A DNA stretch of 64,000 bases from Croceivirga sp. (GTDB taxonomy: Bacteria > Bacteroidota > Bacteroidia > Flavobacteriales > Flavobacteriaceae). The translations under genes and the position numbers were made by a program. The stretch lies in the NCBI GenBank assembly GCA_028284935.1, contig JANQQQ010000018.1:62001-126000 (forward strand). The letters run 5' to 3'. Numbering within the stretch: the stretch's first letter is position 1; every line of letters begins with the position of its first letter. Under the pieces are notes generated by a model, which saw only the letters and a program-made list of their open reading frames with translations, was not told the origin of the DNA and did not search any database. Shown here one piece after another: positions 5,426-61,113 of the stretch.

Positions 5426-6787
5426 TCAGCCAAACAAATAGGTAACCACATCTTCTACTTTGGATACCAATCGCACTTCAACTTTTGGCTTTTTAATACC
5501 GATTTTATTGCTTTTGGAAATAAAAATGGTCGAAAAACCTAATTTTTCAGCTTCAAGAATGCGCTGGTCAACGCGTTGGACAGGCCGAATTTCCCCTGCC
5601 AAGCCAATCTCAGCAGCAAAGCATATTCCTTTTTCAATGGGAATATCGGCGTTACTGGAAAGGATGGCAACCATGACTGCCAAATCGATGGCGGGATCGT
5701 CCACGGAAATTCCGCCGGTAATGTTCAAGAAAACATCCTTAGCTGCCAATTTAAAACCAGCTCGCTTTTCCAAGACGGCCAATAGCATGTTCAGCCGTTT
5801 GGCGTTAAAACCCGTGGCGGAACGTTGGGGTGTTCCATATACCGCCGTACTGACCAAGGCCTGAACCTCAATCATTAAGGGCCTTATGCCTTCAACGGTA
5901 GCCGCAATTGCGGTACCGCTGAGCTCTCCTTCACTATTGGAGATTAATACTTCAGATGGGTTCACTACCTCCCTGAGTCCGTTACCCTGCATTTCATAAA
6001 TACCCAACTCAGCAGTGGAACCAAATCGGTTTTTTAAAGAGCGAAGGATACGGTATACATAGTTACGATCCCCTTCAAACTGAAGCACGGTATCCACCAT
6101 ATGTTCCAAAATTTTGGGTCCTGCGATGGTACCATCTTTTGTAATATGCCCAACTAAAATGACCGGGGTATTACTTTCTTTGGCAAATTTGATAAGTTCG
6201 GCCGTACATTCCCGAATCTGCGAGATACTGCCAGCAGCTGATTCAATATAATCCGTGTGTAGGGTTTGAATGGAATCAATAATGATTAAATCAGGTTCCG
6301 TAGCTACAATTTGTTGGAAAATATTTTGTGTCTTAGTTTCGGTAAGCACGAAGCAGTTTTGGGAATTCGGAAGAATTCGGTCTGCCCGCATTTTGATTTG
6401 CTTTTGGCTTTCCTCTCCGGAAACATAAAGGGTTTTCACGGGCAGCTTCAGTGCAATTTGAAGGAGTAGGGTGCTTTTCCCAATTCCAGGTTCACCGCCC
6501 AAGAGTGTTAAGGAGCCAGGGACCAACCCACCACCCAAAACACGGTTGAACTCTTGGTCCAACATAGTAATACGAATCTCCGACTCATTTGTAATTTGAT
6601 GGACCGGGAGCGGTTTGGCAGTTCTGGAAGAACCGTTTGTGGAAGTTTTCCAAGTGTTCTTGGGTTGTTTTTGCACCACTTCCTCTACAACGGTATTCCA
6701 TTGTTTGCATGAGGAACACTGTCCCACCCATTTAGGGTATTGGGCGCCGCAGTTTTGACAGAAATAGGCAACTTTCGTCTTGGCCAT
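5426..6787 (-). CDS. radA: DNA repair protein RadA
   Basis: A 453-residue RecA-like helicase that helps branch migration during recombinational repair. The N-terminal zinc finger has Cys10, Cys13, Cys24 and Cys27; the Walker A motif is GGEPGIGKST; the RadA-specific LKNRFGS motif follows; and the C-terminal third is the Lon-protease-like domain (LAVMVAILSS, EIGLAGEIRPV). Length and start are standard. A TATCTTTA element at 6807-6814 on the minus strand, 20 bases upstream, is a possible -7 box. The PQQ dehydrogenase starts 31 bases after it and may be co-transcribed. Confidence 0.97.
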   Translation of the reverse strand: MAKTKVAYFCQNCGAQYPKWVGQCSSCKQWNTVVEEVVQKQPKNTWKTSTNGSSRTAKPLPVHQITNESEIRITMLDQEFNRVLGGGLVPGSLTLLGGEPGIGKSTLLLQIALKLPVKTLYVSGEESQKQIKMRADRILPNSQNCFVLTETKTQNIFQQIVATEPDLIIIDSIQTLHTDYIESAAGSISQIRECTAELIKFAKESNTPVILVGHITKDGTIAGPKILEHMVDTVLQFEGDRNYVYRILRSLKNRFGSTAELGIYEMQGNGLREVVNPSEVLISNSEGELSGTAIAATVEGIRPLMIEVQALVSTAVYGTPQRSATGFNAKRLNMLLAVLEKRAGFKLAAKDVFLNITGGISVDDPAIDLAVMVAILSSNADIPIEKGICFAAEIGLAGEIRPVQRVDQRILEAEKLGFSTIFISKSNKIGIKKPKVEVRLVSKVEDVVTYLFG

Positions 6788-6889
6788 CTAAAGCTCGGAA
6801 TTTGGCTAAAGATAGTGTTTTGGATGGTTGGTACTTGAATTCCAGAACTAAGAAATATACCGAAATAATTATCAAAACATGGAATCCAA

Positions 6890-8032
6890 CTAGTATCCAA
6901 AATCTGCCTTAATGGCATCAATTTTTTCCAAAGCCATGTCTTTGGTCAGAAAGTCAATGGGCTCCATCAAAAATGATTTTTCAAAGGCCTTCATGGCTTT
7001 TTTGGGTTCGCCAGCGAGTTCTAAATGTTCTCCTTCCAGATAAAATCCGAGCATGGTTTCTGGAAATTGCTCTTTGCAGATGTCAGCGAGTGCTTTCAAA
7101 GAATCAAAATCATCTTTCTTTAAAGCACCGGCATAAATGGCCATGATATCATTTAATTCCACTTCCTTTCTAAAACCCAACAGGTTTTCTATCATGCCAT
7201 ATTTGTCCTTCAAGTATTGGATAACGGGCTCATTGGAAGTTAGGATTTGCTCTTTATATTCCTTGGGACTTATGGGACGGAACAGTTTGAAAACGTTGTC
7301 AAATGCTTTACTGATGCCATAGGCAGCAATGGATATATGATCGGGTTCTTTGTATTCATCAAAGAAATAGTGCAAGTTCTCTTTGCCAATGGAGGCAATG
7401 GCGTTGTTCATTTGAAGGATTCGGTTGCGGTCCTCGGCCTTACCTTTTTCCAACACGAGGTTATAGAAAATCTCCTGATTTAAGTCGGACAGTCTAGAAG
7501 GTATTCTACTTTCCATTTCGGTAGCCAAAACGGGTGAAATGATTAGATATGAATTGAACAATGACTTGTCCTTAAATAAAAAGTAATTTCCAAAATTGGC
7601 CGTTATGTCATATCCAATGAACATTTTAAAAGGAGCCACGTTGTAGCTGGTCTCTAAGTAAGGAATCAATTCAGTTCCCAAAAACTCGTAAAAGAGCTTC
7701 CCTTTTTCTGTAGGTAATCCGGTGGTTTGCTCAAAGTCGCAATCTTCCCAGCGGAGCTCATTTTCTTCTTGATGTACCCCTACAATAATGGATTCCGGCA
7801 TGCGGTTGTATTTACTGAAAAACTTGGCATTGGAAACTACAAGGTCAAAGAGATAGTCTGCATCCAACACTAAAATCAAGGGATATTTTTTGTCTTCGGA
7901 ATAATTCTCTGGGAAATAGTAGGAGACGTCCCTTCTTTCCTGCAATTTGAACGATTCAAAGATTTCTTTTTTTACTTGGCCGTTCAGTCCAAGGCAGAGT
8001 AAGCCAAAAAGGAAAAGTAGTGGTTTGTTCAT
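6890..8032 (-). CDS. Esterase-fold secreted protein lacking the catalytic Ser
   Basis: A 380-residue exported protein with a signal peptide (MNKPLLFLFGLLCLGLNGQ). Residues 30-270 fit the putative-esterase (esterase D/IroE-like) alpha/beta hydrolase fold: YPLILVLDADYLF, ESIIVGVHQ, LIPYLETSY and YLIISPVLA. The nucleophile elbow, normally GHSxGG, reads G140-Y-D142-I-T-A, so the Ser is an Asp and the glycines are lost. The last 100 residues look helical and TPR-like (ALKKDDFDSLKALADI, AGEPKKAMKAFEKSF). I infer a non-hydrolytic or altered-function member. It stands alone between radA and a flippase-like gene. Confidence 0.75.
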   Translation of the reverse strand: MNKPLLFLFGLLCLGLNGQVKKEIFESFKLQERRDVSYYFPENYSEDKKYPLILVLDADYLFDLVVSNAKFFSKYNRMPESIIVGVHQEENELRWEDCDFEQTTGLPTEKGKLFYEFLGTELIPYLETSYNVAPFKMFIGYDITANFGNYFLFKDKSLFNSYLIISPVLATEMESRIPSRLSDLNQEIFYNLVLEKGKAEDRNRILQMNNAIASIGKENLHYFFDEYKEPDHISIAAYGISKAFDNVFKLFRPISPKEYKEQILTSNEPVIQYLKDKYGMIENLLGFRKEVELNDIMAIYAGALKKDDFDSLKALADICKEQFPETMLGFYLEGEHLELAGEPKKAMKAFEKSFLMEPIDFLTKDMALEKIDAIKADFGY

Positions 8033-8057
8033 GGGGTATTGGTTTGATAATCAGAGA

Positions 8058-9023
8058 TTATCGATTTCGATTCAATAACGGTAAGAGCATAAAGGATATT
8101 GCCCCAAGGATAACGATCATTAAGGTTTGGGCAATCCACATAATCCATCCAAAGGCATCGCCGGAATTGGATGAAATGCCAAATAGCGCCAGTGCTGCAC
8201 TGACAAAAACAGGATAGCCCCCTAATCCTCCTGGGAAAACCATCATGGCAAAAGCTCCTGCGACGAAGGCCACCAAAAGCTCGGACAGCCCCAAAGCCGT
8301 AGTTTCAGGAATCGCAAATTTTATGGCCCAAAACATACCCACATAACAGATCCAAATAAAAAACGTATGAAGAATGAAAGGCCATTTGTCCCTCATTTTT
8401 AAAATGCTGCTTACCCCTTGGAGCATCCCATTTAAAAACTTTTTGATTTTTAAAAGGAATCCGTCTTTCGCTTTTCCAACCAAGCGTAAAAGCACAATAA
8501 GGCCAAAAATTCCAAGGATGAGGATCGCAATACTAAAAACCAAGTTAAGGCCATAATCTTCTAGATAGCCAAGGACAAAATTTGTTTGTAAGAGCAATGC
8601 GCATATAATAATGAGCAGCAACATAATAACGTCAATGACCCTTTCCGTAACAATGGTCCCAAATCCTTTTTCAAAAGGAACATCTTCATAAGTGGTCAAA
8701 GCAGTGGCCCTTAAAAATTCTCCCGAACGTGGAACACCGAGGTTAGCCAAATAAGCTATCATGACCATAAAGAAATTATTGCTGACCTTAGGGGTATAAC
8801 CTAAAGGACGTAAGAGGTAATTCCACCTTATGGCTCTTGAAACATGACTGAGTATTCCTATGACTATCGAGATTGATATCCAAAATGGGTTGGCTTTGGC
8901 AATATTGTCCACAATATTTTTTCTATCCGCCGGAGATGTACTGCTGTAAAGAAAAATAAGCAATGCAATCCCTAAGCCAAAAGGAACAACAATCTTAAGT
9001 GCTTTTTTAAACGTTTTGGACAA
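8058..9023 (-). CDS. Lysylphosphatidylglycerol synthase TM-domain / flippase-like membrane protein
   Basis: A 321-residue polytopic membrane protein of the UPF0104/AglD2-like family, with about eight hydrophobic segments and the family signatures HVSRAIRWNYLL, LGVPRSGEFLRATAL, GTIVTERVIDV and FPGGLGGYP. Members are thought to act as lipid or lipid-linked sugar flippases; the substrate here is unknown. The best start is a TTG at 9023, one base after the panD stop, because no in-frame ATG occurs before the second membrane helix. This implies co-translation with panD. Confidence 0.85.
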   Translation of the reverse strand: MSKTFKKALKIVVPFGLGIALLIFLYSSTSPADRKNIVDNIAKANPFWISISIVIGILSHVSRAIRWNYLLRPLGYTPKVSNNFFMVMIAYLANLGVPRSGEFLRATALTTYEDVPFEKGFGTIVTERVIDVIMLLLIIICALLLQTNFVLGYLEDYGLNLVFSIAILILGIFGLIVLLRLVGKAKDGFLLKIKKFLNGMLQGVSSILKMRDKWPFILHTFFIWICYVGMFWAIKFAIPETTALGLSELLVAFVAGAFAMMVFPGGLGGYPVFVSAALALFGISSNSGDAFGWIMWIAQTLMIVILGAISFMLLPLLNRNR

Positions 9024-9024
9024 A

Positions 9025-9375
9025 TTATTTCAATAAGTTGGTATCCTCATTGGGAAAGACCAAGGATGGATTAAAAACCTTTGCTTCTTCAATATCCATC
9101 CATGCATAAGTAATCAAAATAAGAACATCACCAACGGCAACCTTACGCGCAGCGGCACCATTTAGCGTAAGCTCGCCGGAGCCCCTTGGACCTGGTATCG
9201 CATAGGTTTCCAAACGCTCACCGTTGTTATTGTTAACAATCTGAACTTTTTCCCCACGAATGATATTTGCGGCATCCATCAAGTCTTCATCAATGGTAAT
9301 GCTACCAATGTAGTTAAGATCGGCTCCAGTTACCTTTACACGATGAATTTTGGATTTTACTACTTCTACTTGCAT
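9025..9375 (-). CDS. panD: Aspartate 1-decarboxylase
   Basis: A 116-residue pyruvoyl enzyme that makes beta-alanine for pantothenate. The self-cleavage site Gly24-Ser25 in [10 protein letters not shown] is in place, as are the substrate-site residues of [12 protein letters not shown] and the [13 protein letters not shown] segment. I use the ATG at 9375 (MQVEVVKSK), which puts the cleavage site at the canonical position; a start four codons upstream is possible. It lies 18 bases downstream of panC, forming a panC-panD-flippase unit. Confidence 0.97.
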
Positions 9376-52405: not shown

Positions 52406-52666
52406 ATGGACATTTCGGTTGAGCTTACCCTAACGCCACTTCAGGATGATTTTGAACCGCCCATCATCCATTTTATCAAGAGCCTTAGGGCATCTGGATT
52501 AAGGGTTTTGGAGAACCCCTTGAGCACACAGGTTTTTGGATCGTATGATGCCGTCATGAAATTGTTGACGCAGGAAATCAAAACGGCATTTGAAAATACG
52601 GATAAAGTCCTCTTGTATATGAAAATTGTAAAGACCGACCGCAGCGAATATGAACCCCATTTTTGA
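52406..52666 (+). CDS. DUF77/YkoF-like small protein (possible thiamine binder)
   Basis: An 86-residue ferredoxin-like-fold protein: MDISVELTLTPLQDDFEPPIIHFIKSLRASGLRVLENPLST, then QVFGSYDAVMKLL and a final beta strand. The strand-helix pattern and the T-x-V-x-G turn fit the DUF77/YkoF group, some members of which bind thiamine or its pyrimidine. It begins at the ATG at 52406, just after a good promoter, and overlaps pnuC by 17 bases. Confidence 0.7.
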   Translation: MDISVELTLTPLQDDFEPPIIHFIKSLRASGLRVLENPLSTQVFGSYDAVMKLLTQEIKTAFENTDKVLLYMKIVKTDRSEYEPHF

Positions 52667-53288
52667 TTGGTTATTTGCACAGTACGATGGAGTGCCGACC
52701 CATTTGGTCGTTCTTGAAATTATTGCGGTAATCTTTGGCTTTCTTAGTGTTTGGTTTTCCAAAAGAGAGAATATTTTGGTGTATCCAACAGGCATTGTTT
52801 CCACAGCTATTTTCGTTTACATTCTTTTGGTGTATGGGTTATTGGGTGATATGCTCATCAATGCCTATTACTTTAGCATGAGCATTTATGGATGGTGGAT
52901 ATGGACACGCAAAGTTGATGATACGCATTACATCCCCATTACTAAAATAGATGCAAGGGAGAAAAGGTGGAGCCTATTACTTTTTTTGGGGACCTTGATT
53001 TTTGTGACCGCGGTGTATTACCTATTTGGAAAGTTCGATTCATGGACTGCTTATGTGGATATATTGACAACGGCCATTTTCTTTGTGGGGATGTGGTTAA
53101 TGGCCAAAAAAAAGCTGGAAAATTGGACCTTTTGGATTATCGGTGATATTATTTCGGTTCCCCTTTATTTTTATAAAGGGTTGGTCTTTTCGTCATTTCA
53201 ATATTTTTTGTTCACCATAATTGCCATTTACGGTTATATCGCATGGAAGAAAAACTTGGGCAAGAGCCCTCAGACCTTATTAAAATAG
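52650..53288 (+). CDS. pnuC: PnuC-family vitamin transporter (nicotinamide riboside or thiamine)
   Basis: A 212-residue membrane protein with about seven helices and the PnuC pattern: LEIIAVIFGFLSVWFSKRENILVYPTGIVST, YYFSMSIYGWWIWTR, TAYVDILTTAIFFVGMWLMAKKKLENWTFWIIGDIISVPLYFYKGL. PnuC proteins move nicotinamide riboside, PnuT thiamine, by facilitated diffusion followed by phosphorylation inside. The neighbours (DUF77 upstream, TPP riboswitch 3 kb downstream) favour thiamine; the NadR-like kinase favours nicotinamide riboside. Undecided. Confidence 0.88.
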   Translation: MNPIFDWLFAQYDGVPTHLVVLEIIAVIFGFLSVWFSKRENILVYPTGIVSTAIFVYILLVYGLLGDMLINAYYFSMSIYGWWIWTRKVDDTHYIPITKIDAREKRWSLLLFLGTLIFVTAVYYLFGKFDSWTAYVDILTTAIFFVGMWLMAKKKLENWTFWIIGDIISVPLYFYKGLVFSSFQYFLFTIIAIYGYIAWKKNLGKSPQTLLK

Positions 53289-53809
53289 TACTTTACGGTC
53301 CCGAATCCACCGGAAAGACGACCTTGGCGAAACAACTGGCGGAACACTACCATACCGTTTGGGTGCCTGAATATGCTAGGGAATACCTTCAAAAAAAGTG
53401 GGATGAAACACAGGAAATCTGCACTCTTGAAGATTTGATTTCCATTGCCGAGGGACAGATGGACCTAGAGAACCGCTTTGCCAAACAGGCCAACAAGGTG
53501 CTTATTTGCGATACGGATATTTTAGTGACCAAAGTATATTCCGAAGCCTATTTTGATGGATATTGCGACCCTGTCTTAGAGCAAAATGCCCTAAACAACA
53601 CCTACAATCTCTATTTTTTAACCAGTATCGATGTACCATGGGTAAAGGACGATTTGCGTGATCGACCCGATGAAAGACCATTGATGTTTAACCTTTTCAA
53701 AACAGCCTTGGAGAAATATCGACGTACTTTTATTATTTTAGAAGGAACCCAAGAAAAGCGGCTACAAAAGGCCGTTACGGAAATCGACAAATTACTGATT
53801 CATGATTGA
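53243..53809 (+). CDS. NadR-type nucleoside kinase (AAA ATPase)
   Basis: A 188-residue P-loop kinase like the C-terminal kinase domain of NadR: IVLYGPESTGKTTLAKQLAEHY (Walker A), WVPEYAREYL, ICDTDILVTKVYSE (Walker B), and the lid DLRDRPDERPLMF. No NMN adenylyltransferase domain. It overlaps pnuC by 46 bases in another frame, unusually long for this region, because the only usable ATG is at 53243. It would trap the substrate imported by PnuC; nicotinamide riboside by homology, thiamine by context. Confidence 0.87.
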   Translation: MEEKLGQEPSDLIKIVLYGPESTGKTTLAKQLAEHYHTVWVPEYAREYLQKKWDETQEICTLEDLISIAEGQMDLENRFAKQANKVLICDTDILVTKVYSEAYFDGYCDPVLEQNALNNTYNLYFLTSIDVPWVKDDLRDRPDERPLMFNLFKTALEKYRRTFIILEGTQEKRLQKAVTEIDKLLIHD

Positions 53810-55871: not shown

Positions 55872-56171
55872 ATGAAAAAGTTCGTTCTCTTAATTATACT
55901 ATCAACGATGACCTTAGCCACATCCTCTGCGAATATCCCTGCATTGGAAAAAGTCACTATGGTGGCAGCTGATGAGTACAAACGGGTTGATTCGAGTGAA
56001 CTGACTCCCGCGGTCGTTGAGCAAATATTGAAGGAATACCCAACTTCCAAACTTGGAGCGGTCTACAAGAACAATAAGGGTCAATTCAAACTAGTTATGG
56101 TGTTGCAAAGTGGTTCAAGACGTACCGTATACATTGACCAATATGGACGATGGTTCACCCCAAAACGTTAG
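55872..56171 (+). CDS. Small secreted protein, unknown function
   Basis: A 99-residue exported protein: signal MKKFVLLIILSTMTLATSSA, then ELTPAVVEQILKEYPTSKLGAVYKNNKGQFKLVMVL and SRRTVYIDQYGRWFTPKR. The helix followed by three or so strands recalls PepSY-like / BLIP-like secreted proteins common in Bacteroidota. Located just upstream of the thiamine riboswitch. Confidence 0.75.
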   Translation: MKKFVLLIILSTMTLATSSANIPALEKVTMVAADEYKRVDSSELTPAVVEQILKEYPTSKLGAVYKNNKGQFKLVMVLQSGSRRTVYIDQYGRWFTPKR

Positions 56172-56244
56172 GCAAACCCTCATCCAGTACCACCCGACCC
56201 CTTTCTTTTTAGAATTCTTCTTTTAGCAATAAGAAAAACAGTAG

Positions 56245-56252
56245 TACATTTG
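56245..56252 (+). promoter_or_regulatory. Promoter of the thiamine receptor operon
   Basis: TACATTTG matches TAnnTTTG with a TTTA at 56222-56225 at the -33 distance. Transcription would start right before the TPP aptamer. Confidence 0.7.
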
Positions 56253-56258
56253 CAACCA

Positions 56259-56339
56259 TCTCAAAGGGGTGCTTCCCAATTAGGAGGCTGAGATTATACC
56301 CATTGAACCTGGGCGGATAATGCTGCCAAGGGACCGAGC
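56259..56339 (+). ncRNA. TPP riboswitch (THI element)
   Basis: The conserved aptamer parts appear in order: AAGGGGTGCTTC near the 5' end, GGCTGAGATTATACCC, TTGAACCTGG, GCGGATAATGC and the 3' AAGGGA, with CTC (56260-56262) pairing GAG (56336-56338) to close stem P1. This matches the Rfam THI-box consensus as I know it. It senses thiamine pyrophosphate and turns off the genes that follow. Confidence 0.93.
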
Positions 56340-56345
56340 GTAAGG

Positions 56346-56367
56346 AAAATGTCCGGCGGACATTTTT
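56346..56367 (+). terminator. Hairpin after the TPP aptamer, likely expression platform
   Basis: AAAATGTCC / GGACATTTT, nine pairs with a GGC loop, ending in a run of five T's, starts eight bases after the aptamer. It would act as a transcription terminator when TPP is bound. A perfect palindrome GCCAGTGCACTGGC follows at 56380-56393. I did not find the competing antiterminator by eye. Confidence 0.65.
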
Positions 56368-56476
56368 AGAGGGGAGTTAGCCAGTGCACTGGCAAATTAG
56401 TCTCAATTTGGGTCGCTCAAATAAATCAAGTATAACCAGAATAATAGCCCCTTTTATTCGTAAAACGTATTTACGG

Positions 56477-58645
56477 ATGAAACTATCTATGTTCGCAACA
56501 ATGGCATTGTGCAGCCTGGCGATGGCATCGCTGAAAGCACAAAATCAACAACAGGACTCAACCCAAGGGAAAAAAATTGATTTGGATGAAGTGGTCGTAT
56601 CCGCTTCACGCGCCAATGATAAAATTCCAGTCACCTATGCCCAATTGGAAAAAGAGGAAATTCAACGGATCAATCTTGGGCAAGACATCCCTGTACTATT
56701 GAATTTTTTACCTTCCGTGGTAGCTACTTCTTTTGATGGAACAGGGGTAGGCCCCACGGATTACAGGATTCGAGGAGCTGATAACTCTAGGATTAATGTA
56801 ACAATTAATGGAATACCCTATAATGATGCAGATAGTCAGACTACTTTTTTTGTCAACCTGCAGGACTTTGCATCTTCTGTGGAAAACATTCAAGTACAAC
56901 GGGGTGTTGGAACATCAACCAATGGGGCGGGAGCCTTTGGGGCAAGCCTTAATATTTTGACGGACCATGTCAACGAAGAAGCTTTTGGACAGCTATCAAG
57001 TAGTGTTGGGAGTTTTGGAACATTTAAAAACACGGTGCGTTTTGGTACGGGTTTACTTGGAGACCATTTTGCATTTTCTGGGCGACTGTCCAAAATAGAT
57101 TCCGACGGATATGTAGATCGGGCCTTTTCCGATTTGCGTTCCTACTTTTTGGATGGGGTGTATAAGGATGAAAACACCCAGATAAAGGCCGTAATCTTTG
57201 GGGGGGAAGAAATTACAGGACTTTCCTTTGCTGGGCGGAATGCCGAAGGACTGGAAGCGGACAGGACATTTAACAATGATGGTCTTTTTTTGGATGGGGA
57301 TGGGAACACACAGTTCTACGACAGGCAGACGGACAATTATAAGCAAGACCATTTTCAGTTGCATATTACCCAACAATTCGATGAAAATTGGACAGGGAAC
57401 CTATCCTTGCACTATACCAACAGTCGAGGGTTTTTTGAACAGTATTTGGAATCGGATCCCAGTTTTTCCAATCCTGATTTGACTTTTTATGGATTACCTA
57501 CCTTCGAGTCCGGTGGGGAAACCATTGATAGAACCGATCTCACCACAAGAAGACATCTCAACAGTGACTTCTACGGAACCGTGTTCAGCGTACTCTATCG
57601 AGGGGATAAGTTGAACGCCACTTTTGGAGGTGCATGGAACAGGTATGATGGGGAGCAGTTTGGGGAGGTAACCGCTGTGGAGTTTGGACAGCTGCCTTCC
57701 TTTCCGTTTCGATTTTATGACAATGGAACCGATAAAAGGGATTTTAATGCCTATGCCAAGGCCTCTTTGCAATTGAACGAACAATTTTCACTCTTCGGAG
57801 ATCTTCAGGTACGAACCATAAACTATGAAGCTGCTGGCAGCTATTTTACTTTTGATGGTATTGCCAACCTGGATGTTGACGAGCAATATACCTTTTTCAA
57901 TCCCAAGGCTGGAATAACGTACCGACCTAACAATAAGAACAGTATTTATTTGTCCTATGCGAGGGCCAATCGTGAGCCTGCTAGGGTCGATTTTGAAACC
58001 GGTTCCCCGGAATCTGAGAGCGTCAATGATTTTGAATTGGGATGGCGCTACGTTTCACAGCACTTTCAACTGAATACCAATGTCTATTACCTGGATTTCG
58101 AAAATCAGTTGGTATTGACAGGGGAATTGGATAACGTAGGTTTTCCAATACGGACCAACAGTGGGCAAAGCTATCGTTTGGGACTCGAAGTGGATGTCAA
58201 CGTTCAATGGAACAAATGGAGCATTCGACCCAATATTGCATTGAGCTCCAATAAGAATATTGACTTTTTGGTGGAAGATGGAAATGGAGGTTTTACCAAT
58301 CTAGGGAATACCAATATTTCCTTTTCACCGGATTTTGTTGCGGGCAATGTGCTCACCTACAGTATTTCCGATACGTTTAGGGCCAGTTTGTTCTCAAAAT
58401 ATGTAGGGGAGCAATTTATGACCAATGAAGACAGCAATCCACTGGAAAGCTATTTTGTTAATGATGTCAATCTGCAATATTCCATTCCCGGAATTGCCAT
58501 CCTAAAATCATTGGTTTTGACGGCTCAAATCAACAATATTTTTAATGCGGAATACGAAAATAATGGGTATGTGTTCTTTGAGGAATCCTTTTTCTATCCT
58601 CAGGCAGGGACTAACTTCTTGGTAGGGGCCACCTTAAATTTTTAG
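56477..58645 (+). CDS. TonB-dependent receptor for thiamine or a thiamine precursor
   Basis: A 722-residue receptor without the regulatory-like domain. Signal MKLSMFATMALCSLAMASLKA, TonB box region KIDLDEVVVSAS, plug with LPSVVATSFDGTGVGPTDYRIRGADNSRINVTINGIPYND and IQVQRGVGTSTNGAGAFGASLNI, and a barrel ending in LNF. I choose the ATG at 56477; the frame opens at a GTG at 56384 inside leader structure. Control by the TPP riboswitch assigns it to uptake of thiamine, TPP or the pyrimidine part. The ThiY-like gene starts 3 bases after its stop. Confidence 0.93.
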   Translation: MKLSMFATMALCSLAMASLKAQNQQQDSTQGKKIDLDEVVVSASRANDKIPVTYAQLEKEEIQRINLGQDIPVLLNFLPSVVATSFDGTGVGPTDYRIRGADNSRINVTINGIPYNDADSQTTFFVNLQDFASSVENIQVQRGVGTSTNGAGAFGASLNILTDHVNEEAFGQLSSSVGSFGTFKNTVRFGTGLLGDHFAFSGRLSKIDSDGYVDRAFSDLRSYFLDGVYKDENTQIKAVIFGGEEITGLSFAGRNAEGLEADRTFNNDGLFLDGDGNTQFYDRQTDNYKQDHFQLHITQQFDENWTGNLSLHYTNSRGFFEQYLESDPSFSNPDLTFYGLPTFESGGETIDRTDLTTRRHLNSDFYGTVFSVLYRGDKLNATFGGAWNRYDGEQFGEVTAVEFGQLPSFPFRFYDNGTDKRDFNAYAKASLQLNEQFSLFGDLQVRTINYEAAGSYFTFDGIANLDVDEQYTFFNPKAGITYRPNNKNSIYLSYARANREPARVDFETGSPESESVNDFELGWRYVSQHFQLNTNVYYLDFENQLVLTGELDNVGFPIRTNSGQSYRLGLEVDVNVQWNKWSIRPNIALSSNKNIDFLVEDGNGGFTNLGNTNISFSPDFVAGNVLTYSISDTFRASLFSKYVGEQFMTNEDSNPLESYFVNDVNLQYSIPGIAILKSLVLTAQINNIFNAEYENNGYVFFEESFFYPQAGTNFLVGATLNF

Positions 58646-58648
58646 CAT

Positions 58649-59557
58649 ATGAAGACTTTGAAATTAGCTTTGGATTGGACACCAAATACCAATCATATTG
58701 GTTTTTTTGTAGCCCAGGAACTGGGATTTTATGAGGAGTTGGGACTAAAAGTTGTCCTCTTGAATCCGGAAGATGATAATTATACGCTTACTCCCGCAAA
58801 GAAGGTAGAAATGGGAGTAGCCTATATGGCGCTGTGTCCGTTGGAAAGCATCATTAGTTATCAAACCAAACAGCAACCCTTTAACGCAGTGGCTATTGCC
58901 ACATTGTTTCAGGAAGATTTGAGTGAGATCGTGGTGCTGGATGATAGTCCAATTCAACGGCCTAAAGAATTGGATGGTCACTCTTATGCGTCGTACAAAG
59001 CAAGGTATGAAGATGAAATCGTCCGTCAGATGATTGTCAATGATGGCGGAAAAGGCGACATAGAATTGGTATATCCCGACAAGTTGGGAATTTGGGAGAC
59101 CCTTTTGAGCAAAAAATATGATGCCACTTGGATTTTCTCCAACTGGGAAGGTGTTCAGGCAAGAGGTAAGGGGATAAAACTAAGAGGCTTTCGCCTGGCC
59201 GATTATGACATTCCCTATGGATATTCCCCAGTGATTATGGCATCAAAAAAGAAGGTGGATTATGCCCCATCCATATACAGAGCATTTGTTGAGGCTACAA
59301 AGCAGGGATTTCTATATGCTAAACATCAACCCGAAGAAGCTGTTGCTATCCTTCAGCCACATGTTGCTAAACAGGATAGGGATATTGATTTATTGACCAG
59401 TCAATTGGAAACCATCCCGGCATACGGGGAAGATAGGAATTGGGGTAGGATTGAATCCGACCGCGTGGAACAGTTTTTAAACTGGTTAAAAGCCGTGGGA
59501 TTGGAGACCACCCCTCTATCTTGGGAGCATCTAATCTATTCAGGGATTGATTTTTAG
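58649..59557 (+). CDS. ThiY/NMT1-like pyrimidine-binding protein without a signal peptide
   Basis: A 302-residue protein of the NMT1/THI5-like (periplasmic binding protein) family: MKTLKLALDWTPNTNHIGFFVAQELGFYEELGL is the typical N-terminus, followed by GVAYMALCPLESIISYQ, YDATWIFSNWEGVQARGKGI and RLADYDIPYGYSP. The mature domain begins at residue 1: no signal peptide or lipobox, unlike ThiY. The CCCFC motif of fungal Thi5 is absent, and at the places of its Lys62 and His66 I read Ala and Leu. No ABC permease or ATPase is adjacent. It is coupled to the receptor and under the same TPP switch, so a role in pyrimidine handling is likely. Confidence 0.88.
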   Translation: MKTLKLALDWTPNTNHIGFFVAQELGFYEELGLKVVLLNPEDDNYTLTPAKKVEMGVAYMALCPLESIISYQTKQQPFNAVAIATLFQEDLSEIVVLDDSPIQRPKELDGHSYASYKARYEDEIVRQMIVNDGGKGDIELVYPDKLGIWETLLSKKYDATWIFSNWEGVQARGKGIKLRGFRLADYDIPYGYSPVIMASKKKVDYAPSIYRAFVEATKQGFLYAKHQPEEAVAILQPHVAKQDRDIDLLTSQLETIPAYGEDRNWGRIESDRVEQFLNWLKAVGLETTPLSWEHLIYSGIDF

Positions 59558-59673: not shown

Positions 59674-60669
59674 ATGGAGAGCGAACCTTTCTTTCGTAAA
59701 AGAACAATCCGCTGGGGGATTATTGGTTGTGGGAATGTTACCGAGATTAAAAGTGGTCCTCCCTATCAAAGGACCAAGGACTTTGAGCTCGCGATGGTCA
59801 TGCGCAGGGATGCGGAAAAAGCAGAGGATTATGCAAATCGGCATAGTGTGCCCAATTGGACCACAAACCCTTTAGAGGTTATTGATAACCCTGAAATTGA
59901 TGCAATCTATATTGCTACCCCTCCAGACACCCATAAGCTCTATGGTTTGCAAGTGGCGGAAGCGGGAAAACCCTGCTGTATTGAAAAGCCCATGGCCCCT
60001 TGCCATGCCGATAGTCTTGAGATCTATAATGCCTTTGATCAAAGGAAAATCCCTTTGTTTATTGCCTACTATCGCCGATCCTTGCCAAGATTCAACAGGG
60101 TGAAGCAATGGCTCGATGAAGGACGTATTGGAAAAGTGCGCCACATTCATTGGGTGAAGACCCGAACCTCAAGTCCATTGGACAAAAGTGGGGATTATAA
60201 TTGGCGCACCGATGCCAACGTTGCTCTAGGCGGTTATTTTGATGATTTGGCCAGTCATGGCCTCAACCTATTTACCTATCTATTGGGTGATATCGTTGAA
60301 GCTTCGGGTATTGCCAGCAATCAGCAGGGATTGTATTCTGCCTATGATACGATTTCTGGAAGCTGGAAGCATAAAAACGGCATTACGGGTTCAGGTGCTT
60401 GGAATTTTGGTAGCTACCAACCCATTGATAAAGTCGAAATTTTAGGTGCAAGAGGTGAAATTCATTTCTCGGTTTTGGATGAATCACCTTTGCAATTGAT
60501 TTCTGATATGGGAAATCAATCTGAATTTATCGAACACCCGGAGCACCTGCATCAATACCACGTGGAGAACATCCGAAAGCACCTATTCGGTAAAGGCGAA
60601 CATCCATCACAAGGGGGTTCTGGGCTGCATACCAGTTGGGTGATGGATAAAATTTTAGGTGTGATGTAG
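59674..60669 (+). CDS. Gfo/Idh/MocA-family oxidoreductase
   Basis: A 331-residue NAD(P)-dependent dehydrogenase. Rossmann start IRWGIIGCGNVTEIKSGP, IDAIYIATPPDTHKLYGL, the catalytic-type EKPMAP motif, then the alpha/beta C-terminal domain with GGYFDDLASHGLNLFTYLLGDI carrying the conserved D-x-x-x-H. Substrates in this family are sugars or inositols; which here is unknown. It probably has its own promoter, so may not belong to the thiamine operon. Confidence 0.92.
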   Translation: MESEPFFRKRTIRWGIIGCGNVTEIKSGPPYQRTKDFELAMVMRRDAEKAEDYANRHSVPNWTTNPLEVIDNPEIDAIYIATPPDTHKLYGLQVAEAGKPCCIEKPMAPCHADSLEIYNAFDQRKIPLFIAYYRRSLPRFNRVKQWLDEGRIGKVRHIHWVKTRTSSPLDKSGDYNWRTDANVALGGYFDDLASHGLNLFTYLLGDIVEASGIASNQQGLYSAYDTISGSWKHKNGITGSGAWNFGSYQPIDKVEILGARGEIHFSVLDESPLQLISDMGNQSEFIEHPEHLHQYHVENIRKHLFGKGEHPSQGGSGLHTSWVMDKILGVM

Positions 60670-60672
60670 TTT

Positions 60673-61113
60673 CTAATTGGAAATAATCACGGAATTACCG
60701 GCCAAAACTGCCCGGTAGGGCTGAAGATTAAAAAACCGACCACCATCCTCAGGAGGGTTGAGCAATTGCCCAAAAAAGAGGTTGTACTCAAAATCGTCAC
60801 AGGGGCAGCGTACATTTTGCCCCTCCAATATCATGGTAGAACAAGTATTGGGTGCATGGTTGGGACAGTTGGCTTCCCAAGCAACAAATTGATTGTCCGG
60901 TCCGGTTCTCATCACAAAAACCCCTCGAATGCCGACCCCATCGTTTGGAACATAAATAGGGTTCCCAATGTTATTTAAATCCGTATATAAAGGAAGGTTG
61001 AGATTGAGGTCGAACCTAAAATTAACGTCGGGCAAGAACGGATTTCTATTGGGACCATCACTTTCACAGGAAAACAGTAACGTCATGAAAATCAGTAAGA
61101 AAAGCTTTTTCAT
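60673..61113 (-). CDS. Rieske-like lipoprotein with degenerate cluster motif
   Basis: A 146-residue lipoprotein (MKKLFLLIFMTLLFSC). The last 70 residues follow the Rieske fold: VAWEANCPNHAPNTC, GQNVRCPCDDFEYNLFFG, LQPYRAVLAGNSVII. In a working Rieske site the boxes are C-x-H and C-x2-H; here box 1 is Cys83-Pro-Asn-His86 and box 2 is Cys103-Pro-Cys105-Asp106, so at least one His ligand is lost. Cluster binding is doubtful. Similar lipoproteins recur in Flavobacteriaceae. Convergent with the oxidoreductase gene. Confidence 0.82.
   Translation of the reverse strand: MKKLFLLIFMTLLFSCESDGPNRNPFLPDVNFRFDLNLNLPLYTDLNNIGNPIYVPNDGVGIRGVFVMRTGPDNQFVAWEANCPNHAPNTCSTMILEGQNVRCPCDDFEYNLFFGQLLNPPEDGGRFFNLQPYRAVLAGNSVIISN

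Follow-up and report, generated by a model that had tools for sequence, protein, structure and literature searches.

Downstream of a TPP riboswitch and a TonB-dependent receptor in Croceivirga sp. (Flavobacteriaceae), a 302-aa protein of the NMT1/THI5 family is encoded without an export leader. In the reading preferred here, to which we give an even chance of being right, this member of a transport family has been repurposed to bind thiamin or thiamin phosphate in the cytosol, where it retains scavenged vitamin B1 and hands it on. We infer the ligand, the sign of the regulation, the direction of transfer, and the role, which we take to be trapping or carrying, not catalysis or sensing. At low TPP, the riboswitch would raise the receptor and the binding protein together; the receptor would deliver thiamin to the periplasm, inner-membrane passage would be through a facilitator of the PnuC/PnuT type, and inside the cell the binding protein would keep the vitamer and hand it to a kinase and ThiL.

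According to the accessible part of the source, many aquatic bacteria need vitamin B1 from outside (PMC10881298). How Bacteroidota keep and use traces of this vitamin is little known. If the proposal is true, a member of an ABC binding-protein family carries or converts a vitamin in the cytosol, and the family, common to bacteria and archaea, is under TPP control in some of its hosts. No bacterial protein dedicated to carrying thiamin in the cytosol is known to us, and none was found in the open-licence literature searched. Since the family has few members, clear limits, and cultivable carriers such as Maribacter antarcticus, Marivirga, Spirosoma oryzae, and Halonotius, its ligand and function are directly testable.

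The window, i.e., the whole stretch of DNA analysed (64,000 nucleotides), harbors the following features:

52650..53288, + strand: PnuC-family transporter, candidate inner-membrane route (PnuT or PnuC); PF04973, 181.8 bits
53243..53809, + strand: AAA_28/NadR-like kinase, candidate thiamin or nicotinamide riboside kinase; PF13521, 147.2 bits
about 56244..56251, + strand: TAnnTTTG-type promoter box TACATTTG, read by eye in the sequence
56255..56350, + strand: TPP riboswitch aptamer (THI element); RF00059, 49.1 bits, E 1.9e-8, sub-gathering
56345..56367, + strand: 10-bp hairpin 3' of the aptamer, candidate expression platform; -10.3 kcal/mol, z -3.24
56477..58645, + strand: TonB-dependent receptor, by its omr1/OMthi-like position a putative thiamin receptor of the outer membrane; PF00593, PF07715
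58649..59557, + strand: leaderless NMT1/THI5-family protein, 302 aa; PF09084, 156.6 bits

The 302-aa protein covers the PF09084 profile completely (1-216 of 216; curated cut-off, 20.5 bits), its AF2 model has a pLDDT of 94.2, the Pfam scan revealed no second domain, and its one Cys is residue 63. The TAG of the receptor gene lies in the same frame, two codons ahead of the ATG, so an export leader is impossible from any start. Hence, the protein, described as devoid of a signal peptide in the preliminary description, indeed carries no export signal at its true N-terminus and is probably cytoplasmic, a location that is well supported. The receptor gene (best start, ATG at 56477; stop ending at 58645) matches PF00593 with 95.6 bits and PF07715 with 45 bits, in agreement with its earlier designation, and is separated from the NMT1/THI5 gene by the three bases stated before. 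The claimed lack of an ABC partner also holds beside the gene, as the Pfam scan of the neighbouring ORFs showed no adjoining ABC gene. The omr1/OMthi genes likewise sit after a TPP riboswitch, as far as the accessible parts of the sources go (PMC5613172, PMC10881298). By this position, the receptor is a putative outer-membrane thiamin receptor.

The membership of the operon in the TPP regulon is well supported. The THI element claimed earlier for its leader is borne out by an RF00059 alignment spanning the full model (1-105), at a score below gathering (49.1 vs. 54.3), so the default RF00059 cut-off is not reached. Among the genome-wide RF00059 candidates, of which 150 out of 155 were scored, no other reached E<=0.001; folded alone, the aptamer was not more stable than its shuffles (z -0.96). 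The hairpin 3' of it, previously called terminator-like, is real by its z-score but was not listed by the terminator scan, and since its T-run lies inside the stem, only the putative label "terminator-like" is justified. The box TACATTTG is visible and was named after TAnnTTTG, which we take to be the Bacteroidetes promoter consensus, but the sigma-70 promoter scan of the leader, with this box included, found none.

The neighbourhood survey extends the link to TPP-controlled outer-membrane uptake, suggested in the preliminary description, beyond this genome. Seven related loci (L007-L012, L022) carry a TPP aptamer 5' of the receptor, and such an aptamer lies upstream of the receptor and the gene in seven of the eight Flavobacteriaceae loci examined (weakest E 0.0025), L119 being the exception with no TPP aptamer. 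In Marivirga (L022), three aptamers above the gathering score precede a PnuC and kinase pair homologous to that of the window, the leaderless gene, and the receptor, respectively; the riboswitch of the leaderless gene ends up 6 bases ahead of its ATG. In Maribacter (L012), the gene row reads receptor, 2OG oxygenase, PnuC, leaderless gene. At the same time, no TPP riboswitch was found at nine loci (L013-L019, L024, L119), and such a receptor was not seen near 7 of the 15 Bacteroidota members, the 9 members from other groups, and L119 (some stretches being short); both results count against the binding-protein reading.

The candidate for the inner-membrane step, the PnuC-family gene, is the single PF04973 match in the genome and is overlapped by the kinase ORF; a kinase candidate adjoins PnuC in 10 of 16 PnuC loci. 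Two features of this PnuC also speak against a thiamin-binding protein: its gene has no TPP riboswitch, and it exceeds the cut-off for nicotinamide riboside PnuC (100.1 vs. 42.45 bits). Elsewhere in the genome, an NMT1 protein is encoded with an ABC ATPase and a permease (L003); this operon is without a TPP riboswitch, and a check for potential counter-evidence named earlier, ThiX/ThiZ genes with a conventional ThiY controlled by this riboswitch, revealed none.

The leaderless family, small and with sharp limits, extends beyond this genome. Its clade A1 (n = 24) comprises 15 Bacteroidota, 2 Chloroflexota, and 7 haloarchaea, and one branch with a support of 100/100 parts the 24 leaderless proteins from 50 secreted relatives. 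The final tree is without L003, L117, L118, and L119; it was rebuilt because the long branch of the distant L003 protein had distorted the first version. A hydrophobic, leader-like stretch lies upstream in 50/50 secreted relatives, and a hydrophobic in-frame extension is absent in 23/24 clade members (hydrophobicity limit of 1.6 for the first 32 residues, with two clade members near it at 1.59 and 1.51). The exception, L015, displays such an extension with a GTG inside; like the two values near the limit, this counts against the binding-protein reading. Plasmid matches amounted to 147 records, all below 60% identity (28-37% for the 15 listed). A thiamin ABC transporter near the haloarchaeal L117 and L118, considered on ThiP/ThiQ-like matches, was dropped because its binding protein looks, by eye, iron-type.

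Invariant columns number 45 in the clade (mean identity 50.5%), 55 in 24 secreted proteins (60.8%), and 19 in all 50 secreted proteins (44.8%), the sets being unequal in divergence. The polar invariants of the clade include Glu66, Asp90, Tyr113, Ser115, Tyr116, Arg119, Glu121, and Glu167; in place of Tyr116 and Arg119, the 50 secreted proteins have Trp/Phe and mostly Pro (39/50). In the profile alignment, this region coincides with the GEFG stretch of Thi5, which presumably holds the PLP phosphate; Tyr116 and Arg119 at this position would therefore suit a phosphorylated ligand.

The best match by both sequence and fold is 4nmy, a thiamin-bound ABC substrate-binding protein from Clostridioides difficile. 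The profile comparison yielded 200 bits for 4nmy, 111 bits for ThiY, and 45 bits for Thi5, and the Foldseek order was the same (4nmy, E 3.3e-27, TM 0.86/0.87; ThiY, 3ix1, TM 0.87/0.87; Thi5). Since the TM scores for ThiY and 4nmy are equal, it is mainly the sequence that favors thiamin. Thus, the comparison with ThiY and Thi5 recommended in the preliminary description confirmed a common fold family but placed 4nmy, not ThiY, nearest by sequence. Of the "cytoplasmic pyrimidine carrier" envisaged there, the cytoplasmic part stood and the pyrimidine did not, the nearest relative being thiamin-bound and the genome having no ThiC or ThiE match.

The window genome revealed one ThiL and no match to ThiC, ThiE (PF02581), or TPK; to judge from these profiles, thiamin synthesis seems to be absent. 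HMP would therefore have no known use and a pyrimidine enzyme no outlet, and the former emphasis on a pyrimidine was not sustained. For the same reason, a ThiC-replacing HMP-P synthase, i.e., a prokaryotic analogue of Thi5, is very unlikely, even though 22/24 carriers lack ThiC, including 9/9 haloarchaeal carriers against its presence in 72/116 sampled genomes of the same class. Strong ThiE occurs in just 10/24 carriers, with ThiM adjoining it in 8/10 of these, which, as far as gene order tells, is a sign of salvage; the Thi5 residues are missing, as an earlier hand alignment had correctly indicated. This reading was dropped because of the missing ThiE match and because Flavobacteriaceae as a rule lack ThiC anyway (ThiC match in 25/120 sampled genomes, none in 95/120). 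Thiaminase-like degradation was likewise rejected by reasoning: a gene that would be raised at low TPP, in a genome with no ThiE match, is not expected to destroy thiamin.

That the protein is a new enzyme of the cytosol, built on the binding-protein fold and converting an imported or damaged thiamin vitamer to thiamin or TMP, is conceivable, if rather unlikely. Enzymes do occur within the fold (the structure matches include Thi5 and DszB, a desulfurization enzyme), the numerous invariant columns with many polar residues could mean catalysis, the oxygenase in the Maribacter row is of the 2OG-Fe(II) type, and ThiL is retained in carriers that gave no ThiE and TPK matches, which calls for a source of TMP. 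Still, the clade has no invariant Cys or Lys, its single invariant His is common to 50/50 secreted proteins, and a kinase candidate already stands beside PnuC at most PnuC loci. The broader possibility of an unrecognised enzyme across Bacteroidota, Chloroflexota, and haloarchaea, which would add a B1 salvage step feeding ThiL in cells mostly without ThiC, is deemed unlikely. A ligand-responsive sensor signaling thiamin status to a partner protein in the cytosol would find parallels in the regulatory domains of the CmpBCD transporter (among the fold matches by titles), which we take to be cytosolic; with no second Pfam domain, no obvious partner, and TPP already sensed by the riboswitch, it is decidedly unlikely. 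Finally, the family name and the extension in L015 would suit an ordinary substrate-binding protein with non-classical export, or wrongly called starts in some members, which is scarcely credible given the in-frame stop in the window, the lack of adjoining ABC genes, and the 23/24 members without a hydrophobic extension.

Among the known systems, the Bacteroides OMthi, pnuT, and tnr3 loci combine a TPP riboswitch with an outer-membrane receptor, and PnuT and a thiamin-kinase-type gene belong to the same regulon; the accessible part of that text contains 0 occurrences of an NMT1 protein (PMC5613172). The clade shares with 4nmy the motif DWTPNTNHTG and the columns of Tyr113, Trp161, Trp166, and Tyr192; at the same time, 4nmy has 25% identity, is an ABC-transporter protein by its title, and lacks Pro49, Pro64, Tyr116, and Arg119 of the clade. 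ThiY (3ix1), the formylaminopyrimidine-binding component of ThiXYZ, has the same family and fold; it is ABC-linked and, by its title, periplasmic, whereas the 302-aa protein has neither a leader nor ThiX/ThiZ beside its gene. Thi5/THI13, the HMP-P synthase, is a cytosolic member of the same family; its Lys62 and His66 columns are occupied in 24/24 clade members by Cys/Ala/Gly and Ile/Leu/Val, its CCCFC motif is absent in all 24, with no Cys in the aligned stretch, and ThiE, the user of its product, has no counterpart in the window genome. PLPHP/YggS differs from the 302-aa protein in its unrelated fold and in its vitamin. It is, however, a PLP carrier for which passing a vitamin cofactor on within the cell has been proposed, according to the accessible part of the source (PMC13353753).

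The gene under study encodes a 302-aa NMT1/THI5-family protein and lies three bases behind a TonB-dependent receptor gene, downstream of a TPP riboswitch aptamer:

56255–56350, forward strand: TPP aptamer (RF00059, 49.1 bits, E 1.9e-8; gathering score 54.3)
3′ of the aptamer, forward strand: 10-bp hairpin
56477 (ATG) to 58645, forward strand: TonB-dependent receptor
58649–59557, forward strand: NMT1/THI5 protein, 302 aa (PF09084, 156.6 bits)

The aptamer is below the default Rfam threshold, its single-sequence fold is not better than that of shuffled sequences (z −0.96), and it is the only one found in its own genome (4.23 Mb, 99.99% complete; 150 of 155 candidates scored).

Since the stop codon of the receptor is in frame with the gene, two codons 5′ of its ATG, no start codon can supply a leader to the window protein, which bears out the lack of a signal peptide noted in the preliminary description. 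This feature recurs in A1, an alignment of the window protein with the best 23 of the 80 best loci kept from a scan of 84,980 species genomes (15 Bacteroidota, 2 Chloroflexota, 7 haloarchaea; 42–69% identical to the window protein). The first 32 residues fall below a hydrophobicity of 1.6, our own threshold for a leader-like stretch, in 24/24 A1 members (highest 1.59 and 1.51; window 1.35). In 23 of them no in-frame upstream extension exceeds this limit; the exception, L015, has an extension scoring 2.53, with a GTG inside it as the sole upstream start. These measurements cover the A1 members, three further members (L117, L118, L119) lying outside them. A stretch above 1.6 directly precedes the matched domain in 50/50 other relatives, examined among the 57 remaining loci (L049, L063, L068, L071, L074, L077 and L081 left out). 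The two sets were measured over different regions, with the upstream extension of the 24 measured separately. At L016 (Phaeodactylibacter xiamenensis, around 7985–8001), the nearest ATG is by eye out of frame with the gene and the start position is ambiguous.

In a tree of 74 proteins, the 24 leaderless and 50 secreted ones are parted by a single 100/100 branch. The A1 profile scores five members at 379–482 bits, including three outside A1 (G067, G172, G190), and the next best match at 97 bits (E ≤ 1e-20, 116 genomes of the Halonotius class). The family is bounded and rare, occurring in 2/120 Flavobacteriaceae and 3/116 genomes of the Halonotius class, the window's own and the centre genome included, respectively. 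Since it spans two domains, horizontal transfer is suggested.

An aptamer precedes the receptor in 7/8 Flavobacteriaceae loci (the window, L007–L012). All seven score below gathering (E from 1.9e-8, on a short stretch, to 0.0025) and have a core sequence in common, at the same place; the eighth locus, L119, lies on an 11-kb contig of an 87% complete genome, and no aptamer and no receptor were found there. At six of these seven loci the leaderless gene directly follows the receptor; the exception is L012, from Maribacter antarcticus, where genes for a 2OG-Fe(II) oxygenase and a PnuC protein intervene. This oxygenase-like protein (L012:6595-7383; PF03171, 34.8 bits), behind the TPP aptamer, is possibly a vitamer-modifying enzyme. 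In Marivirga arenosa (L022), three aptamers above the gathering score lie within 2.4 kb (6656–9026), one each before PnuC plus kinase, the leaderless gene and the receptor. The second (7900–7994) ends six bases before the ATG (8001), and the leaderless gene here belongs to the TPP regulon independently of the receptor. The search was negative at eight other loci (L013–L019, L024), which counts against the generality of TPP control; Rfam scanning covered neither L026 nor the haloarchaeal loci. Such control is common to part of the family.

Other neighbors were also noted. Relatives of a 99-aa window protein with a signal-like start (55872–56171; no Pfam match) lie no more than 7.5 kb from the gene at each of the six loci L007–L012. 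A Gfo/Idh/MocA oxidoreductase downstream (59674–60669), found likewise in L007–L011 (as two ORFs in L011) and absent in L012, is probably plain synteny. A small protein on the reverse strand (60673–61113), with a lipoprotein-like start, a CPNH...CPCDDF stretch and no Pfam match, appears Rieske-like by eye.

The genome survey for thiC proposed earlier was carried out: ThiC, ThiE and TPK_catalytic searches gave no matches in the window genome, and one ThiL exceeded the cut-off. The only PnuC-family gene found there overlaps an AAA_28/NadR-like kinase ORF (pair at 52650–53809), its own end lying 3.0 kb upstream of the aptamer; the pair is a candidate for either a thiamin or a nicotinamide riboside route. 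An ABC ATPase, NMT1 protein and permease operon on contig 16 of this genome (L003:692-3184, by eye) is without a TPP riboswitch; its NMT1 protein has an N-terminal hydrophobic stretch.

Among carriers of the leaderless gene, several of which are metagenome bins where absences carry less weight, ThiC occurs in 2/24 (G130 Fulvivirga, G137 Spirosoma), strong ThiE (>100 bits) in 10/24, adjoined by ThiM in eight of the ten, with weak ThiE matches in two more. TPK is present in 3/26 and ThiL above the cut-off in 25/26, the remaining one having TPK; ThiL in non-carriers was sampled in 14 named controls. PnuC is found in 15/15 Bacteroidota carriers vs. 0/11 others, with kinase pairing at 10/16 PnuC loci. 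ThiC is present in 25/120 Flavobacteriaceae, and in 72/116 genomes of the Halonotius class vs. 0/9 haloarchaeal carriers. Apart from the two carriers with ThiC, the common thread is scavenging, not synthesis.

A fold comparison with ThiY and Thi5 was run on an AlphaFold2 model (pLDDT 94.2, pTM 0.91) and put a third protein ahead of both. The best Foldseek match was 4nmy, a substrate-binding protein that its entry title gives as thiamin-bound (E 3.3e-27, TM 0.86/0.87), followed by ThiY 3ix1 (2.8e-25, TM 0.87/0.87) and then Thi5; A1 profile scores were 200, 111 and 45 bits, respectively. Accordingly ranked third, Thi5 also differs at the residue level. The iron-binding CCCFC motif of Thi5 is visible in the Thi5 sequence aligned to the A1 profile. 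Arg119 of the leaderless clade aligns there with the Glu of the Thi5 GEFG stretch, which we take to bind the PLP phosphate; a literature search gave no confirmation of this. Arg119 belongs to the residues invariant in this clade and not in the secreted set, together with, e.g., Pro49, Pro64, Ser70, Asp90, Tyr116 and Tyr190; Asp9, Trp10, Asn13, Asn15 and His16 are among those invariant in both. The columns of Thi5 Lys62 and His66, whose roles are described in PMC10848271 (CCCFC does not occur in its accessible text), hold C/A/G and I/L/V, respectively, so these residues are indeed missing, as first aligned by hand. HMP synthesis, one of the roles suggested in the preliminary description, fits poorly; an enzyme of some kind is the main rival explanation. 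A cytosolic binder of thiamin or thiamin phosphate, helping to retain the scavenged vitamin, fits the location, the control, the nearest structure and the ThiE-less setting.

Among known systems, OMthi and PnuT of Bacteroides are described in PMC5613172, the accessible text of which does not mention NMT1, and omr1 with a nearby TDP riboswitch is reported for two Flavobacteriales clusters in PMC10881298. For a cytosolic vitamin carrier, a parallel is offered by PLPHP, a proposed carrier of PLP (PMC13353753).
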